From the NCBI GenBank assembly GCA_025146925.1, contig CP102260.1, forward strand, positions 1,690,001 through 1,754,000: a stretch of 64,000 bases of DNA, read 5' to 3'. This stretch comes from [Bacteroides] pectinophilus. GTDB lineage: Bacteria; Bacillota; Clostridia; Lachnospirales; Lachnospiraceae. The translations under genes and the position numbers were made by a program. Under the pieces are notes generated by a model that had not been told where the DNA came from, did no database searches, and worked only from the letters and a program-made list of their open reading frames with translations. Of this stretch, positions 84-63,594 are shown piece by piece. Position 1 is the stretch's first letter. Every line of letters begins with the position of its first letter.

Positions 84-872
84 TTAATCTATCTCTCTTA
101 AGAGTCCGGCTTTTCTCATAACCGGTCTTAATGCAAGATATATAATTGATGCAGCCACCACTGCCACAACAGCGTTGACTGTTGTTGTCAGTCCGTTAAT
201 CTTGGCAAGTGTCTTAGCAAGATCCTGAGGCAGTCCATACAGATATGTCTTATAGAAATAGCCTACGAATGGCTCTGCTATTATGTTGAATATCATTCCT
301 GCTGTTGCTGATACAACTGTAGCTGCAACCGTGTAGCCATGTCCCTTGTCATTCGGCTTTGATATCCTGAACAGTTTATGAGCAACAAATCCTGTAATAA
401 GACCAATGCAAAGCTTAAGGACAAATGTCTTCGGTGCTGTTGTAATATATATTCCTGAGAGAATATCGCTTATTGACATTCCAACCGCTCCTGCCATTCC
501 ACCCCAGAAGCCACCGATAAGCAATGCTGCGAGTACGCAGAACACGTTACCAAAATGAAACATCGTTCCCTCTGTTCCTGCAACCGGTATCTGTATCTTA
601 AAATATGTACATCCTACATAACTTAATGCCGCACACAATGCAGCCTGTGCCAATACTGTAGTGTTGGTTATGTTCCGGCTCTGTTCTTTCTTAAATGCAG
701 TTATAAGTCCGGCAATAATGATTGTAATACCTGCAAATGTTGCAATAAGCGAATATGCATATGGCGCATTCTTATAATTGCCCGCCTCGTAGGTAATCAC
801 GTCTGCTATTATTCCGGCAATTGTGACTACCGCTCCCACTATAAGTGGAATGTACTTTTTGTTCTTTTCCAT
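84..872 (-). CDS. ECF transporter S component (vitamin-type substrate binder)
   Basis: An integral membrane protein of about 262 residues with six to seven hydrophobic segments. It resembles the substrate-specific (S) component of energy-coupling factor importers, which bind a vitamin or related micronutrient and dock on a shared EcfAAT module; no EcfA or EcfT gene lies nearby, which fits a group II system. The central stretch FHFGNVFCVLAALLIGG, followed by a Gly-rich GGMAGAVGM helix and an APKTFVLK segment, is typical of the family. The substrate cannot be named from sequence. The start is ambiguous: ATG at 872 has GGAGG five bases upstream, while ATG at 884 has GGAGGT eleven bases upstream. 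I prefer 872. The reading frame runs open farther upstream, but that stretch is leader RNA. The gene has its own promoter and terminator, so it is monocistronic. Confidence 0.8.
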   Translation of the reverse strand: MEKNKKYIPLIVGAVVTIAGIIADVITYEAGNYKNAPYAYSLIATFAGITIIIAGLITAFKKEQSRNITNTTVLAQAALCAALSYVGCTYFKIQIPVAGTEGTMFHFGNVFCVLAALLIGGFWGGMAGAVGMSISDILSGIYITTAPKTFVLKLCIGLITGFVAHKLFRISKPNDKGHGYTVAATVVSATAGMIFNIIAEPFVGYFYKTYLYGLPQDLAKTLAKINGLTTTVNAVVAVVAASIIYLALRPVMRKAGLLREID

Positions 873-998
873 GTTTTCCTCCATTTCTGCCCACACCTCC
901 GGGCATGCCAAGTCTGCAGATAAATGCAAATCTTGTATCATGTATGCAGACATCTTATAGCAAATGTGGCAACATGTAAAATGCCAGTTTTAATAATA

Positions 999-17067: not shown

Positions 17068-18774
17068 ATGAAACACAGATTACAAAAGCTTGCAGCGTCT
17101 CTGCGCAGGCACCTTAAGGTTATCATCCCGGTATTTCTTGTTATAGTGATAGCCGTTGTTGTCGTCTTCCGCACCCAAAAGACAACTGACACGTACACCG
17201 AAGAAACCGTTCAGGTGCGTAATGTTGCGACATACCTTACATTCTCCGGCAATGTTGAAGCCGTCAGTGATGCCACAATAAAGCCGAAGGTATCTAAGAC
17301 AGTTACAGCAGTTAATGTATCTATCGGTGACGAGGTTAAAAAAGGTGACGTAATTGCCACTCTCGATGATTCCGAAATTCAGAGAAGCATAAAGAAACAG
17401 GAAGCATCACTTTCCAATACCGAGCTTAATAATTTCTATTCAATACGTGACAGCCAGAAAAAATATGATAATTACAAGGCTGACCTTGAAAACGGCCAGA
17501 ACAGCCAGATTATGTCTGCCGCAAACAGCGTCGAGAATGCCCGCACATCTTATGAACAGGCCAAAGAAACTTATGAGCGTAATAAGATGGAGCTTGAAAA
17601 CAATATGGATTCATCCGTAATCAGTTCCAACCAGAAAGTTGCATCCGCAAAGCAGGCACTTGATGACGCCAATCAGGATTACGCTGACAATGAAGCAAAG
17701 ATAAGAGGATATGATAAAGGTGTTGCCAATGCTGAGAGCATCTATGGAGAAGACTCCTCTGAGGCTGCAAATGCACAGAAAGAGCTTGAATCAGCAGAAG
17801 AAAAAAGTGATTCTTTACAAAAAGCAATTGACAACGCACAGACTAATTATGACAATGCCGTTAATGACCTGCTTATGTCATATTACACAAGCAACGTTAA
17901 TCTCAATTCCGACTACGAAAATATGCAGCAGAAATACACCGCATACCAGCAGGCGCAGGCAAGCTACGAGATTGCCGTAAAATCAGCCGGTGAAACACTT
18001 CAGGATTATGCCGATTCACTTGAGAAGACCCAGGCTACATCCAATACGACAACTGCCACGGTTGAACTTGAGGCTCTCTATGACCAGCTTGAAGATTATA
18101 AGATTACAGCACCGATTGATGGTGTAATAACAGTTCTCAACATCAATGTAGGCGATTCAGCCTCAACAAGCGATACTGCTGCCGAGGTAACCAATTATGA
18201 TAAGATGAAAGTCCAGATAAAAATTGACGAAGACAATATATCTGCCCTTGATAACGGTACAGAAGTAACCGTATCTGTAGATGCCCTCAATAAGACATAT
18301 AAAGGTACCATTGAAAATATGTCAAAGAAGGCAACCGTAAGTAACAATGTATCATATTTTACAGCCGATGTGACTTTTGATGCAGATGATGATATACGAA
18401 GCGGTCTGTCAGCAGAGGTCAAATACCTCCTTAACGGTGTTGAAAATGTTGTCTCAGTATCAATGAGTGCTCTTAACTACAATACCGATAACACTGCCTA
18501 TGTTCTTGTAGGCGGCAACGCCTCTAATGCACAACAGCGCAATGTTACGCTCGGAATAAGCAACGGCACATATGTTGAGATAAAAGATGGTCTGGCAGAA
18601 GGTGAAACCGTCCTCGTTAAACAGAGTAAGACCTCAGAAGCCCTTATCAGCATGGGCATGGGTGGCGGACAGCGGCCGCAGGGTCAGGCTCCTGACGGCA
18701 ATGGCGGCGGTAACGGTGGCGGCCGTGGCGGTAACGGCGGCAAAGCGCCGGGTGGTGGTCCCGGAGGCAACTAA
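17068..18774 (+). CDS. MacA/HlyD-type membrane fusion protein with Gly-rich tail
   Basis: A 568-residue periplasmic-adaptor-type protein of a Gram-positive ABC export system. It has one N-terminal membrane helix (about 17-34) and a biotinyl-lipoyl half-motif near 70-105. A very long coiled coil (about 110-310) rich in Gln/Asn/Glu/Lys follows, then the second lipoyl half (YKITAPIDGVITVLNINVGD) and a beta-barrel domain. The last 40 or so residues are almost only Gly, Asn, Pro, Gln and Arg, a tail not needed by the adaptor fold. AAAGGAG lies about eight bases before the ATG. It is followed by an ATPase and a permease gene, making a three-gene MacA-MacB-like exporter; the cargo (peptide, macrolide or lipid) cannot be told from sequence. 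Confidence 0.88.
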   Translation: MKHRLQKLAASLRRHLKVIIPVFLVIVIAVVVVFRTQKTTDTYTEETVQVRNVATYLTFSGNVEAVSDATIKPKVSKTVTAVNVSIGDEVKKGDVIATLDDSEIQRSIKKQEASLSNTELNNFYSIRDSQKKYDNYKADLENGQNSQIMSAANSVENARTSYEQAKETYERNKMELENNMDSSVISSNQKVASAKQALDDANQDYADNEAKIRGYDKGVANAESIYGEDSSEAANAQKELESAEEKSDSLQKAIDNAQTNYDNAVNDLLMSYYTSNVNLNSDYENMQQKYTAYQQAQASYEIAVKSAGETLQDYADSLEKTQATSNTTTATVELEALYDQLEDYKITAPIDGVITVLNINVGDSASTSDTAAEVTNYDKMKVQIKIDEDNISALDNGTEVTVSVDALNKTYKGTIENMSKKATVSNNVSYFTADVTFDADDDIRSGLSAEVKYLLNGVENVVSVSMSALNYNTDNTAYVLVGGNASNAQQRNVTLGISNGTYVEIKDGLAEGETVLVKQSKTSEALISMGMGGGQRPQGQAPDGNGGGNGGGRGGNGGKAPGGGPGGN

Positions 18775-18811
18775 ACGCACCAGTTTAATATGCGTATAAA
18801 AATATGCAGGA

Positions 18812-19540
18812 ATGGAGACCGGATTGAATACCACATTTAACATCTCTACTAATAATGAAATTCTCACTATGAAGAATATTGTAAAAGACTATGTAATGGG
18901 TGAGGAAACCTCGCATGTACTTAAGGGAATTGACCTTTCCGTAAATGAAGGTGAATTTCTCGCGATTCTCGGTCCGTCAGGCTCAGGCAAGTCAACTCTT
19001 ATGAATATAATAGGCTGTCTTGATGTACCGACCTCAGGCGAATATATTTTGTCAGGACGAACTATCGCAGACATGGACGAAAAGACGCTCGCACACATCC
19101 GCGGCCGCGAGATTGGATTTATATTCCAGCAGTTTAATCTTCTGCCAAAACAGGATGCTCTTGAAAATGTTGAGCTTCCGATGATCTATGCCGGCGTACA
19201 TGAAAAGGAAAGACGCGAACGTGCCACAGTACTTCTTGAAAAGGTCGGACTCGGTGACAAGCTTCACCATTTTCCTAACCAGATGTCCGGCGGTCAGCAG
19301 CAGCGTGTTGCAATCGCCAGAGCAATGGCTAACTCTCCGTCGATTCTTCTGGCAGATGAACCTACCGGCGCACTTGACCAGAACACCGGACGTCAGGTTA
19401 TGGAGCTCTTCCATGACATAAACAGTGAAGGCCACACAATAATCATGATAACCCATGATGCCAAGATTGCCAGTCACGCATCAAGAATTGTCCGAATTCT
19501 TGACGGCAATCTTGAAGATGGTGACCTTACTGATGCATAA
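18812..19540 (+). CDS. ABC exporter ATPase, MacB/LolD type
   Basis: The cytoplasmic nucleotide-binding subunit for the neighbouring permease, 242 residues. Walker A is GPSGSGKST, the Q-loop is FIFQQFNLLP, the signature is MSGGQQQRVAIARA, Walker B is ILLADEPTGALD and the switch is ITHD. Start choice is uncertain: ATG 18812 has AGGA directly against it, whereas TTG at 18824 has GGAG six bases upstream and would give a protein four residues shorter. It follows the adaptor gene after 37 nt and precedes the permease by 20 nt. Confidence 0.93.
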   Translation: METGLNTTFNISTNNEILTMKNIVKDYVMGEETSHVLKGIDLSVNEGEFLAILGPSGSGKSTLMNIIGCLDVPTSGEYILSGRTIADMDEKTLAHIRGREIGFIFQQFNLLPKQDALENVELPMIYAGVHEKERRERATVLLEKVGLGDKLHHFPNQMSGGQQQRVAIARAMANSPSILLADEPTGALDQNTGRQVMELFHDINSEGHTIIMITHDAKIASHASRIVRILDGNLEDGDLTDA

Positions 19541-48676: not shown

Positions 48677-50218
48677 TTACTTTCTCACAAGAAGACTCTC
48701 TCCTGTCATATCAGCAGGCTTCTCCATTCCCATCATCTCAATAAGTGTAGGAACTATATCTGCAAGTCTTCCTCCCTCCCTGAGAGTGTAATTCTCATCA
48801 TAGTTAACAAGAATAAACGGAACAGGATTCGTTGTATGCGCTGTAAAAGGCTCACCTGTCTCATAGTCAATAAGCTTCTCGGCATTACCATGGTCAGCGC
48901 AGATAAACATCTGTCCGTCAACCTTCCTGATTGCATCAACAACACGTCCAACGCATCCGTCAACTGTCTCAATTGCCTTAATTACTGCATCCATTATACC
49001 TGTATGTCCAACCATGTCAGGGTTTGCAAAGTTAGTTATGATAACATCATACTTTCCTGATTCTATCGCTCCTACAAGCTTATCGCAGACTTCAGGTGCA
49101 CTCATCTCAGGCTGAAGATCATAAGTGGCAACCTTAGGTGACTTAATGAGTATTCTGTCCTCACCCTTGTTAGGCTCTTCAACACCACCGTTAAAGAAGA
49201 ATGTAACATGCGCATACTTCTCTGTCTCAGCAATTCTGCACTGTGTCATGTTATGTGCTGCAAGGAATTCACCAAATGTATTATTAATTGCAACCTTATT
49301 GAATGCAACGCTCTTATTAGGAATTGTAACATCATACTCTGTGAAACATACATATGTTACATTCTTACGTGGTCCACGGTTGAATCCCGTGAATTCATCA
49401 TCACAGAAGCATCTTGTTATCTCTCTTGCACGGTCAGGCCTGAAATTATAACAGATAACAGAATCATTATCCTTAATTACCGCAACAGGTCTGCCATCCT
49501 TCTTAATTACAGTAGGAACAACGAACTCATCTGTCTTACCATCTGCATATGATGCTTCCATTGCAGCAACTGCATCTGATGCCTCAGCACCTTCGCCCTT
49601 TGTAAGTGCATTATAAGCAGCCTCTACTCTGTCCCATCTGTTATCTCTGTCCATTGCATAGTAACGACCGGCAAGTGTTGCAATTGCACCGACACCAAGC
49701 TCGTCCATCTTAGCCTGTACAGTCTTCACATATCCAAGACCACCCTCTGTAGGAGTATCACGTCCATCCATAAATCCGTGCAGATATACATTCTTAAGTC
49801 CTTCTCTCTTAGCAAGCTCAAGAAGTGCAAGCACATGTGTAAGGTGGCTGTGTACTCCGCCATCTGAAAGAAGTCCGAAGAGGTGAAGATCTGAATTATT
49901 CTTCTTACAATTCTCTATAGCACCAAGGAGTGCTTCGTTCTTAAAGAAATCTCCATCCTCAATCTCCTTGGTTATTCTTGTGAGCTCCTGATATACAATT
50001 CTTCCGGCACCCATATTGAGATGTCCGACTTCTGAGTTGCCCATCTGCCCCTCAGGAAGTCCGACTGCCATTCCGCTGGCAAGTCCCTTAACAAATGGAT
50101 ATTCCTTCATAAGGCTGTCCATTACAGGTGTATTGGCATTAGCAATACCATTGCCCTCTTTTCTGTCACTAAGTCCATATCCATCAAGTATCATCAGTAC
50201 TGTAGGTCTTTTGCTCAT
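48677..50218 (-). CDS. gpmI: 2,3-bisphosphoglycerate-independent phosphoglycerate mutase
   Basis: A 513-residue cofactor-independent mutase of glycolysis, an alkaline phosphatase-like Mn-dependent enzyme that interconverts 3- and 2-phosphoglycerate. The N terminus LMILDGYG gives the metal Asp12; the phosphoryl-accepting Ser62 is in GQMGNSEVGHLNMGAGR; C-terminal metal ligands are seen in NFANPDMVGHTG and ADHGNAE. The open frame extends to 50272, but ATG at 50218, with GGAGG six bases upstream, is the true start. The leader contains the element shared with rimO. Confidence 0.97.
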   Translation of the reverse strand: MSKRPTVLMILDGYGLSDRKEGNGIANANTPVMDSLMKEYPFVKGLASGMAVGLPEGQMGNSEVGHLNMGAGRIVYQELTRITKEIEDGDFFKNEALLGAIENCKKNNSDLHLFGLLSDGGVHSHLTHVLALLELAKREGLKNVYLHGFMDGRDTPTEGGLGYVKTVQAKMDELGVGAIATLAGRYYAMDRDNRWDRVEAAYNALTKGEGAEASDAVAAMEASYADGKTDEFVVPTVIKKDGRPVAVIKDNDSVICYNFRPDRAREITRCFCDDEFTGFNRGPRKNVTYVCFTEYDVTIPNKSVAFNKVAINNTFGEFLAAHNMTQCRIAETEKYAHVTFFFNGGVEEPNKGEDRILIKSPKVATYDLQPEMSAPEVCDKLVGAIESGKYDVIITNFANPDMVGHTGIMDAVIKAIETVDGCVGRVVDAIRKVDGQMFICADHGNAEKLIDYETGEPFTAHTTNPVPFILVNYDENYTLREGGRLADIVPTLIEMMGMEKPADMTGESLLVRK

Positions 50219-50224
50219 CTTAAT

Positions 50225-50274
50225 CCTCCATTCCCGCCCCTCCCGGGGCATTCCGAACTTGTGCGCAATCACAA
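50225..50274 (-). promoter_or_regulatory. Two-hairpin leader element of gpmI, shared with rimO
   Basis: On the minus strand an 5-bp stem (50259-50263 with 50270-50274) is followed by a GCCCC/GGGGC stem (50236-50240 with 50245-50249), then the GGAGG ribosome site. It aligns with the rimO leader over about 49 columns, 38 identical. Confidence 0.5.
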
Positions 50275-50280
50275 ATCCGG

Positions 50281-50376
50281 GGTGTAAAATCTCTGATTCT
50301 ACACCATTATCTTCTATCTTGTTATTTCAAATGTTCTTCAATCTAGTATATTATCACATTTGTATTTCTTATGCAA
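50281..50376 (-). promoter_or_regulatory. gpmI promoter and upstream leader hairpin
   Basis: On the minus strand the -35 TTGCAT (50371-50376) and the -10 TAATAT (50348-50353) are 17 bp apart, just after the tpiA terminator. A further GGTGTA/TACACC hairpin (50281-50305) lies in the leader, which is over 100 nt long. Confidence 0.45.
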
Positions 50377-61661: not shown

Positions 61662-62204
61662 TTACTTATCATCCGACATAACGCCTATGTTCCTGTAAAT
61701 GTAATCAACGAGTGAGATTACCGTAAGTGCAAGCGCAATATATACAAAAATCCATTCAACTGTATCAGCATATGGGTAATCAAGCTGCAGAATAAGAAGA
61801 ATAGTCATAATCATCTGAAATGTTGTCTTGAACTTTCCCCAGTAGTTAGCCGCTATAACTACGCCCTTATCAGCTGCAATCAGCCTGAAACCGCTTATTA
61901 TGAATTCCCTGCTTATGATTATTATTACTATCCACGCAGGGAGATAGCCCAGCTCAACAAAAGCTATAAGCGCTGAACATACAAGAAGCTTATCGGCAAG
62001 CGGATCCATAAACTTTCCAAAGTTAGTTACAAGATTGTACTTTCTGGCAATCCTGCCATCAAGCATGTCCGTAAGACTTGCAAGTACAAATACTGCCGCC
62101 GCAATATATTTTGATGCATCACCTGCACAATCAGTAAGCAGGAATACCAGAAATACCGGAATCATAATGACTCTTAATACTGTAAGTTTATTCGGCAAAT
62201 TCAT
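61662..62204 (-). CDS. pgsA: CDP-diacylglycerol-glycerol-3-phosphate phosphatidyltransferase
   Basis: A 180-residue integral membrane enzyme of phosphatidylglycerol synthesis, with the CDP-alcohol phosphotransferase signature in LDGRIARKYN (about 49-58), followed by the Gly and the two Asp of FGKFMDPLADK. About five to six helices are visible. Its ATG lies inside the end of rimO (17-nt overlap), so the two are translationally coupled; GGAGAG lies before the start. Confidence 0.95.
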   Translation of the reverse strand: MNLPNKLTVLRVIMIPVFLVFLLTDCAGDASKYIAAAVFVLASLTDMLDGRIARKYNLVTNFGKFMDPLADKLLVCSALIAFVELGYLPAWIVIIIISREFIISGFRLIAADKGVVIAANYWGKFKTTFQMIMTILLILQLDYPYADTVEWIFVYIALALTVISLVDYIYRNIGVMSDDK

Positions 62205-63531
62205 AATCAGGCTCTCCTATCAAATCGTAATTATCTGATGCTGTTATCTTTACAGGTATAAAATCCCCTGACATAAGCTGTGCATCAGTATTGACAAATA
62301 CATATCCGTCCACATTAGGTGCGTCCCTGTATGTCCTGCCCACATATACATCCTCATCAGCAAGCTTTCCCTCTATCATGACCTTAAGTGTTCTTCCAAC
62401 TACCTCCGCCGAACGGTCGGCTGATATCTCCTGCTGAAGTTCCATTACTGCATCACGCCTTGCTGCCTTGACATCCTCATCAATCTGATTATCAAAGCCT
62501 GCTGCCGGTGTATCTTCCTCAGCAGAATATGTGAACGCTCCAAGTCTGTCAAACTCCAGTTCATCAATAAAATCAAGCACTTCTTCATGCTGCTCTTTGG
62601 TCTCACCCGGGAATCCCGTAATAAGAGTTGTTCTTAAGCAGATATCCGGTATCTCACTGCGGAGTTTTTTAACAATATCAATAAGATCCTGCTTAGTTGT
62701 ACGCCTGCCCATTCTCTTAAGAATAGCATCATTGGCATGCTGTATCGGAAGATCAAGATAATGACAGACCTTAGGTTCTGACTTGATTGCCTGAATAAGA
62801 GTATCATCAATCTCTTCCGGATAGCAGTACAGAATCCTTATCCACTCTATACCGTCTATTGCCGCAAGCTCATGAAGCAGCCTGTGGAGTGACTTTTCCC
62901 CATAGAGGTCTGTTCCGTACAGGCTTGTCTCCTGTGCAACAAGTATAAGCTCCTTAACGCCCTGCTCTGCAAGGTCTTCTGCCTGCTTTATAAGCTCATC
63001 CATAGGAACGCTTCTGTATGAGCCCCTCACTTTAGGGATGATGCAGTATGTACAGCACTTGTCACAGCCTTCTGCAATCTTAAGATATTCATAATATCCT
63101 CCGGTCGTGACAATTCTTCTGTCATGAGTCTGTGGAAGCCTGTTAATGTCCTCAAAACAATTAATGCCATCTCCCTGCTTATTGACAAGTTCATCCAGTG
63201 TGTCGGCAATCTTATCATATGCTGATGTTCCGACTACTGCGTCAACCTCAGGAATCTCATCAATTATCTCCTGTCTGTATCGCTGTGCAAGACACCCGCA
63301 TGCAATAAGGAATCTGCATCTGCCGTTCTTCTTAAGTTCTGCCATCTCAAGCAGCGTATCAACGCTCTCCTGCTTGGCATCGTGAATAAAACAGCATGTA
63401 TTAACAACCACCGCATCTGCCTCATTCTCATCATCTGTGAATTCATATCCTCTTGAATGAAGCTGTCCGAGCATCATTTCTGTATCTACAAGATTCTTGT
63501 CACAGCCAAGTGACACAAACATTATCTTCAT
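62188..63531 (-). CDS. rimO: Ribosomal protein S12 methylthiotransferase RimO
   Basis: A 447-residue radical SAM enzyme that methylthiolates an Asp in ribosomal protein S12. Cluster-binding cysteines of the N-terminal UPF0004 domain are in MFVSLGCDKN and VVNTCCFIHDA, the radical SAM CxxxCxxC is CDKCCTYC, and a TRAM domain closes the protein. Start ATG at 63531 is preceded by GGAG, but the spacing is about 14 bases, unusually long, because an 8-bp unit is duplicated in between. The gene has a good promoter of its own and a leader like that of gpmI. Confidence 0.95.
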   Translation of the reverse strand: MKIMFVSLGCDKNLVDTEMMLGQLHSRGYEFTDDENEADAVVVNTCCFIHDAKQESVDTLLEMAELKKNGRCRFLIACGCLAQRYRQEIIDEIPEVDAVVGTSAYDKIADTLDELVNKQGDGINCFEDINRLPQTHDRRIVTTGGYYEYLKIAEGCDKCCTYCIIPKVRGSYRSVPMDELIKQAEDLAEQGVKELILVAQETSLYGTDLYGEKSLHRLLHELAAIDGIEWIRILYCYPEEIDDTLIQAIKSEPKVCHYLDLPIQHANDAILKRMGRRTTKQDLIDIVKKLRSEIPDICLRTTLITGFPGETKEQHEEVLDFIDELEFDRLGAFTYSAEEDTPAAGFDNQIDEDVKAARRDAVMELQQEISADRSAEVVGRTLKVMIEGKLADEDVYVGRTYRDAPNVDGYVFVNTDAQLMSGDFIPVKITASDNYDLIGEPDYEFAE

Positions 63532-63545
63532 ACTAATATACTAAT
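63530..63545. repeat. 8-bp tandem duplication between ribosome site and rimO start
   Basis: The plus-strand unit ATACTAAT occurs twice in direct succession (63530-63537 and 63538-63545) and includes two bases of the start codon. Removing one unit would restore a six-base spacing between GGAG and ATG. Confidence 0.75.
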
Positions 63546-63594
63546 CTCCGTTCCTGCCCATTCTCGTGGCATTCAAAGTTTGTGCGCAAGCACA
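63546..63594 (-). promoter_or_regulatory. Two-hairpin leader element of rimO, shared with gpmI
   Basis: On the minus strand a GTGC/GCAC stem (63582-63585 with 63590-63593) and a TGCC/GGCA stem (63555-63558 with 63568-63571) precede a GGAACGGAG site. The paired bases differ from gpmI in part, while the TTGCGCACAA and GAATGCC stretches match. Confidence 0.5.

Follow-up and report, generated by a model that had tools for sequence, protein, structure and literature searches.

In Streptococcus pneumoniae, the repeats BOX (boxA-boxB-boxC), RUP and SPRITE are short, modular, present in many copies and patchily distributed; their transcripts are structured, and they are regarded as non-autonomous parasites. 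Insertion of BOX and RUP duplicates the target; both have inverted repeats at their ends and are enriched between convergent genes (PMC3049150). TnGBS, ISLre2 and ISKra4, which encode Mutator-like transposases and have inverted repeats, insert upstream of sigma-A promoters (PMC3942029). In Beggiatoaceae, many TAACTGA repeats are located within several nucleotides of the start codons of unrelated genes, again with a patchy phylogeny. These are seven-base direct repeats without hairpins or demonstrated insertion sites, and canonical ribosome sites are rare in their vicinity (PMC4679880).

The hairpin family described here resembles BOX, RUP and SPRITE in being short, modular, multi-copy and patchy, and BOX and RUP in duplicating its target, but it lacks the inverted ends of these two and is located at Shine-Dalgarno sites, the sequence comparison with these repeats being the Rfam scan alone. 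None of the Rfam 15 covariance models reached its gathering score in the window (the 64,000 nucleotide stretch of DNA under analysis), and none matched at E<=1 in five copy-bearing loci. With TnGBS and ISLre2 the family shares a harmless landing at an expression signal. Unlike these elements and ISKra4, however, it targets the ribosome-binding site, and the search with the Y1 profile PF01797 gave no transposase. By the features tested, the family is a member neither of the BOX/RUP/SPRITE nor of the TnGBS/ISLre2 group. Crowding before start codons of unrelated genes and patchiness are shared with the TAACTGA repeats, from which the family is distinguished by hairpins and insertion sites. Small, palindromic and dispersed, it is also reminiscent of REP/RAYT sequences and of MITEs derived from IS200/IS605, but there is no Y1 transposase and the target is duplicated. 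Literature searches, with subscription journals outside their coverage, returned no described mobile-element family with this target.

The initial annotation of the window had pointed out that the leaders of gpmI and rimO are alike, and they are: aligned on the minus strand they score 28 over 54 columns, while the best of 1,431 other leader pairs from the same window reaches 20.5. The gene identities given there were matched by TIGR01307 and TIGR01125. Read 5' to 3', the gpmI leader consists of a TGTG-ATTGCG-CACA hairpin, GGAATGCC, a GCCCC-GGGA-GGGGC hairpin and GGGAATGGAGGATTAAG, followed by the ATG at 50218; the full upstream read of the minus strand is GGTGTAGAATCAGAGATTTTACACC-CCG-GATTTGTGATTGCGCACAAGTTCGGAATGCCCCGGGAGGGGCGGGAATGGAGGATTAAG-ATG. 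In the rimO leader the order is TGTG-CTTGCG-CACA, GAATGCC, TGCC..GGCA, ribosome site and ATG 63531, the full read being ATGTAATGTGCTTGCGCACAAACTTTGAATGCCACGAGAATGGGCAGGAACGGAGATTAGTATATTAGT-ATG. This layout is as it had been described, except that an extra 5' hairpin in the gpmI copy (50281-50305), a hallmark of the family, had been missed. Judged by their sequences, the two leaders are most likely two old copies of a large mobile hairpin family. The features are given below, R1 being the covariance model derived from 14 copies.

50306..50315, minus strand: putative decayed left target-site duplication of the gpmI copy, AGAAGATAAT (right counterpart GGAGGATTAAG), positioned as in intact copies and weakly similar
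50281..50305, minus strand: hairpin 1 of the gpmI copy, GGTGTAGAATCAGAGATTTTACACC; by sequence, fold and alignment a homologue of the intact-copy hairpin GTGTGAAAAAT..ATTTTTCACAC
50255..50277, minus strand: hairpin 2 of the gpmI copy, GATTTGTGATTGCGCACAAGTTC (R1 match in the window, 66.5 bits, E 9e-22)
50235..50250, minus strand: hairpin 3 of the gpmI copy, TGCCCCGGGAGGGGCG, immediately 5' of the GGAATGGAG box (R1 match and covariation)
50219..50234, minus strand: 3' end of the element with Shine-Dalgarno and spacer, GGAATGGAGGATTAAG (right target-site copy), adjoining the gpmI ATG at 50218
48677..50218, minus strand: gpmI coding sequence, host gene (TIGR01307, E 4e-219)
63581..63594, minus strand: hairpin 2 of the rimO copy, TGTGCTTGCGCACA, hairpin 1 being lost here (R1 match, 62.6 bits)
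63555..63571, minus strand: hairpin 3 of the rimO copy, TGCCACGAGAATGGGCA (R1 match and comparison with the sister genome G001, which has a perfect GCCC/GGGC stem)
63541..63554, minus strand: element end and Shine-Dalgarno before rimO, GGAACGGAGATTAG (sequence)
62188..63531, minus strand: rimO coding sequence, host gene (TIGR01125, E 7e-153)
870..932, minus strand: the window's third family member, with a start codon at its end (ATG 872; R1, 49.7 bits, E 1.2e-15)
18769..18826, plus strand: weak, decayed copy preceding an ORF start (R1, 23.1 bits, E 5e-6)

The leader of cinA, for which R1 gave E 0.06 in the window, may be a decayed copy of the family or a chance hit.

When the leader was searched against the genome to which the window belongs (G000, one complete contig of 3,078,488 bp), many short matches ending at GGAATGGAG were obtained, and the pattern SGRAATGGAGDNTNA matched 144 times compared to 38 times for the reversed control. 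The elements are non-coding and modular, vary in size from about 80 to 145 bp and can be divided into two types. Type B, to which the gpmI and rimO copies belong, is represented by approximately 58 copies (R1, E<=1e-4, strict filters), and type A by 13 full-length copies, 90-97% identical to their consensus, plus many 3' fragments. Intact copies of both types open with the hairpin GTGTGAAAAAT..ATTTTTCACAC. It is followed in type B by a body of two hairpins, GTGTGAAAAATAAGATTTTTCACAC-GCAAGATTTGTGCTTGCGCACAAACTTGATATGCGC(loop)GCGCAGGAAT, and in type A by a body of three, GTGTGAAAAATC..GATTTTTCACAC-AGCTATTTGTGCCGCAGGCGCCACAAATAGC-ATTTATCGCAGAGCCAAATCTGACATTTGGCTCGCGATTCCTCCGGCACTTTGTGCCTGCGGAAT. 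Both bodies pass straight into GGAGNNTA and the start codon; the element ends with GGAAT, and GGAG follows immediately.

Intact copies are always oriented in sense to the host gene and are located a few nucleotides before its start codon. Sixty-one of 63 R1 matches examined lie at an ORF start, with the start codon mostly exactly at the end of the model. Of the 58 GGAGNNTR sites in the window, by comparison, only six are in Shine-Dalgarno position. Compared with Shine-Dalgarno sites as a whole, the target is restricted: the distance from GGAG to the start codon is 6-7 nt in 41 of 51 copies, the window genes ranging from 5 to 14. Part of the start-codon bias may be accounted for by selection against insertions within genes. 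The host genes confirmed by NCBIfam are unrelated (gpmI, rimO, prfA, purN, fsa for fructose-6-phosphate aldolase, era, trpB, cobJ and a hemerythrin gene), and translations of further host genes are similarly varied.

The left end GTGTGAAAAAT resembles a gene start (GTG AAA AAT); this end was noted also in the copy at 81768-81873 (L090). In the copy at 165109-165208 (L081), the GTG of the element opens a frame that crosses the element and continues into the host gene, so that an N-terminal extension is possible. A leader peptide starting at this GTG was considered, but the frame, open in L081, is stopped in L089 and is thus not a conserved coding feature.

Compensating changes in the stems had been proposed from the gpmI and rimO leaders alone, two sequences being too few to show them, but they were apparent across 74 distinct type B copies. 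Here, 92.8% of cells are paired under the named structure, and eight of 12 pairs show double-sided changes, values that none of 500 shuffles attained; since this alignment had been fitted to the model, it is biased towards the structure. One pair in hairpin 3 occurs 38 times as G-C and 28 times as C-G among these sequences. Twenty type A sequences were aligned without reference to structure, and 96.8% of cells pair. Double-sided changes occurred in 17 of 46 pairs, and four of five measures were above all shuffles and all slid controls. Such strong covariation indicates that the structure is conserved and the hairpins are real. Thus, the two observations on which the proposal of a conserved RNA structure depended, further copies and covariation, were both made: the covariance model detected many copies in the genome and in its relatives, and their stems covary.

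Intact copies are flanked by a duplication of 8-9 nt that comprises Shine-Dalgarno and spacer (GGAGNNTA). A comparison of left and right spacers in 42 copies, a list curated by eye, gave 22 identical pairs, whereas 100,000 shuffles gave a mean of 5.6 and a maximum of 15; about half of the spacer pairs differ. Identical pairs include GATA/GATA, GTTA/GTTA and TATA/TATA, and AGGTA/AGGTA in another genus. With the Shine-Dalgarno included, the repeated sequences are GGAGGTTA at 742124, GGAGTATA at 397540, GGAGATTA at 1629555 and GGAGAGGTA at a locus of the other genus (L304 of G207), each present twice, and in an A-B tandem at 734971-735210 GGAGGATA is found three times. Tandem copies are present at L072/L115, L117, L204 and L310. 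Upstream of GGAG, left and right sequences differ where the left one is host sequence (ACAGGAGGATA versus AATGGAGGATA at 630155). GGAAT therefore belongs to the element, and the duplication comprises about 8-9 nt, GGAG plus spacer, although its exact length is ambiguous because GGAG is part of both the target and the constant end. Four type A copies have GGAGATA at the left and GGAGATTA or GGAGAGTA at the right, and in the gpmI copy the left duplication is at best decayed.

Filled and empty sites could be compared with G001, a genome of the same genus with 87-99% identity in most genes compared. At the type A copy 2882793, G001 reads TTTAATGGAATGGAGGATAATATG and G000 reads TTTAAAAGAATGGAGGATA-element-GGAATGGAGGATAATATG; at the type B copy 1905162, G001 reads GCTGCGGAATGGAGATTAGTATG and in G000 the element is located between two GAATGGAGATTA. 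Without the element, these sites in G001 contain GGAATGGAGGATAATATG and GGAATGGAGATTAGTATG, respectively, with a single Shine-Dalgarno. Four more loci are empty in G001 (L116, L117, L123 and L094) and two contain only remnants there (L085 and L086). At L113 and L081, G000 and G001 both have the element, and the genome G002 lacks it. Filled and empty orthologues were paired as L122/L216, L089/L228, L123/L224 and L094/L288. Since L122 and L123 are also empty in the more distant G002, insertion in the lineage of G000 is the simplest reading for them.

The two leaders of the window vary as well. The gpmI gene of G002 (L217) is preceded by plain TGGAGGATTAGCATG with no element, and in G001 the contig starts within the element end that is also present in G000. 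The rimO gene has a type B copy with the perfect stem mentioned above in G001, and a complete type A element in G002 (L277). The body type also differs between G000 and G001 at L088/L286, L111/L226 and L121/L284. From these comparisons, the element body appears to have been swapped between types at the same gene. At L088 and L121, the same first hairpin and flank are kept, with type A in one sister species and type B in the other.

Unrelated hosts, variation in presence and type at orthologous genes, target duplications and tandem arrays are together the behaviour of a mobile repeat. We consider it probable, at roughly 85%, that the family is a miniature mobile element that lands between the Shine-Dalgarno sequence and the start codon, so that the gene still has a functional Shine-Dalgarno. 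An enzyme supplied in trans would recognise the Shine-Dalgarno/start-codon region and would insert the element after GGAGNNTA, thereby duplicating it. With GGAGNNTA duplicated, the gene would retain a normally spaced Shine-Dalgarno and would therefore tolerate the insertion. Later insertions into the new Shine-Dalgarno would produce tandem copies, and recombination between repeats, or decay, would yield single, swapped and shortened copies such as the gpmI and rimO leaders.

It is possible, though rather unlikely, that elements of mobile origin were subsequently co-opted, their hairpins aiding expression through stability of the mRNA 5' end or an open ribosome site and being kept by selection. 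Hairpin 3 persists in diverged copies in which hairpins 1 and 2 decay, GGAG is placed just outside its stem in the predicted fold of the gpmI leader, and the spacing to the start codon is narrow. Conservation of the terminal hairpin could, however, reflect a need of the source elements in transposition, and orthologous genes without an element exist and presumably work.

The explanation proposed at first, a cis-regulatory or protein-binding leader in which a protein or ligand at the hairpins controls translation of a regulon including gpmI and rimO, is improbable. Conserved, covarying hairpins do adjoin the Shine-Dalgarno, and old copies without hairpins 1 and 2 often retain a hairpin right before GGAATGGAG. 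In 80 start sites, 30-mers 5' of GGAATGGAG fold 1.95 kcal/mol below shuffles, compared to 0.5 at 30 ordinary Shine-Dalgarno sites, but this test is partly circular because many of the loci were fetched through family searches. Listing the downstream genes, as the initial annotation had proposed, revealed no function or pathway in common. Sister orthologues lack the element or carry the other type, gpmI of G002 being one without it, and a dedicated regulatory RNA is therefore unlikely. Target duplications and tandem copies are also left unexplained by this model. The conserved structure thus stands as a covarying RNA or DNA structure, but a shared regulatory leader of gpmI and rimO is not its main explanation. 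A secondary effect of the element on translation or mRNA stability could exist.

Sense orientation, target duplications, the lack of inverted ends and the many copies consisting only of a 3' end would also fit a SINE-like retroposon, its RNA being copied by target-primed reverse transcription. This is very improbable. The reverse transcriptase profile PF00078 had no match in G000, G002, G010 and G016, internally deleted copies (L055, L065 and L077) keep both ends, and retention of the 3' end is explained by selection to keep the Shine-Dalgarno. Mobilisation of a REP/RAYT-like or IS200/IS605-derived element by a Y1 tyrosine transposase, suggested by the short palindromic structure without inverted ends, the GGAG tetranucleotide beside a hairpin and the fixed orientation, is extremely improbable, because PF01797 is absent from the copy-bearing genomes G000 (complete), G001 and G002 and the target is duplicated here, while IS200/IS605-type (Y1) elements are known not to duplicate theirs.

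Returning to the miniature mobile element, neither a mobilising enzyme, with the profiles PF01797 and PF00078, nor a longer autonomous copy was detected, and left ends with at most one mismatch belonged to short copies or ordinary gene starts. Intact copies have no terminal inverted repeats, the left end GTGTGAAAAAT and the inverted right end ATTCCTGC/ATTCCGCAGG being mismatched, and inverted repeats matching a resident transposon, which define a MITE in the strict sense, were not found. The interval between partial type A copies at 2606980 and 2610248 was inspected for a transposase, but the ORFs there look ordinary.

Among 60 relatives, 14 had R1 matches at E<=1e-4, with the highest numbers in G001 (57 copies), G010 (17) and G026 (10); single weak matches in other relatives may be due to chance. 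In a wider sample of 200 genomes spread evenly over the bacterial family, the window's own genome included, R1 copies at E<=1e-9 were present in eight and type A in ten. One of the latter is G207, which belongs to another genus. Its type A copies (L304) are 94-96% identical to the G000 consensus, and this similarity suggests horizontal spread between genera. Exact matches in named records were found in CAMBEF01, the same genome as G001, and in JALERL01 and CACZPJ01, both Lachnospiraceae MAGs. At a locus in another family of the same order (L190 of G043), TTTGTG..CACAAAC and ATGCGC..GCGCAG hairpins, preceded by GCAGAAAAGAG, are followed by AAAGAGG and a start codon, a layout which hints that the repeats extend beyond the bacterial family searched.

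Full type A elements are also contained in three unverified human-stool scaffolds labelled 'Bacteriophage sp.' (L299, L300 and L301; MT837007, MT836788 and MT838414). The elements precede genes of bacterial type on these scaffolds, with enolase-like and membrane O-acyltransferase-like ORFs as read by eye. The scaffolds are probably bacterial DNA and so provide no evidence of phage carriage. Exact patterns of young elements were absent from IMG/VR viral contigs, and element patterns were absent from plasmids.

More tentatively, the data may indicate a transposition system targeting the translation-initiation site itself, with an enzyme that is neither a Y1 transposase nor a reverse transcriptase and a self-sparing parasite that has spread between genera; this more specific proposal is doubtful at present. 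The family would be categorically new only if its mobilising enzyme turned out to represent a new kind.

If the interpretation as a mobile element is correct, the common leaders of unrelated genes would be explained, and caution would be advisable in reading such leaders as riboswitches. It would pose the question of which enzyme recognises a Shine-Dalgarno sequence, and the filled and empty sites would provide natural pairs for measuring the effect of hairpins beside the ribosome site on translation. A mobile element of this lineage would then land safely at the ribosome-binding site, rebuilding it on insertion, a counterpart to the elements landing upstream of promoters.
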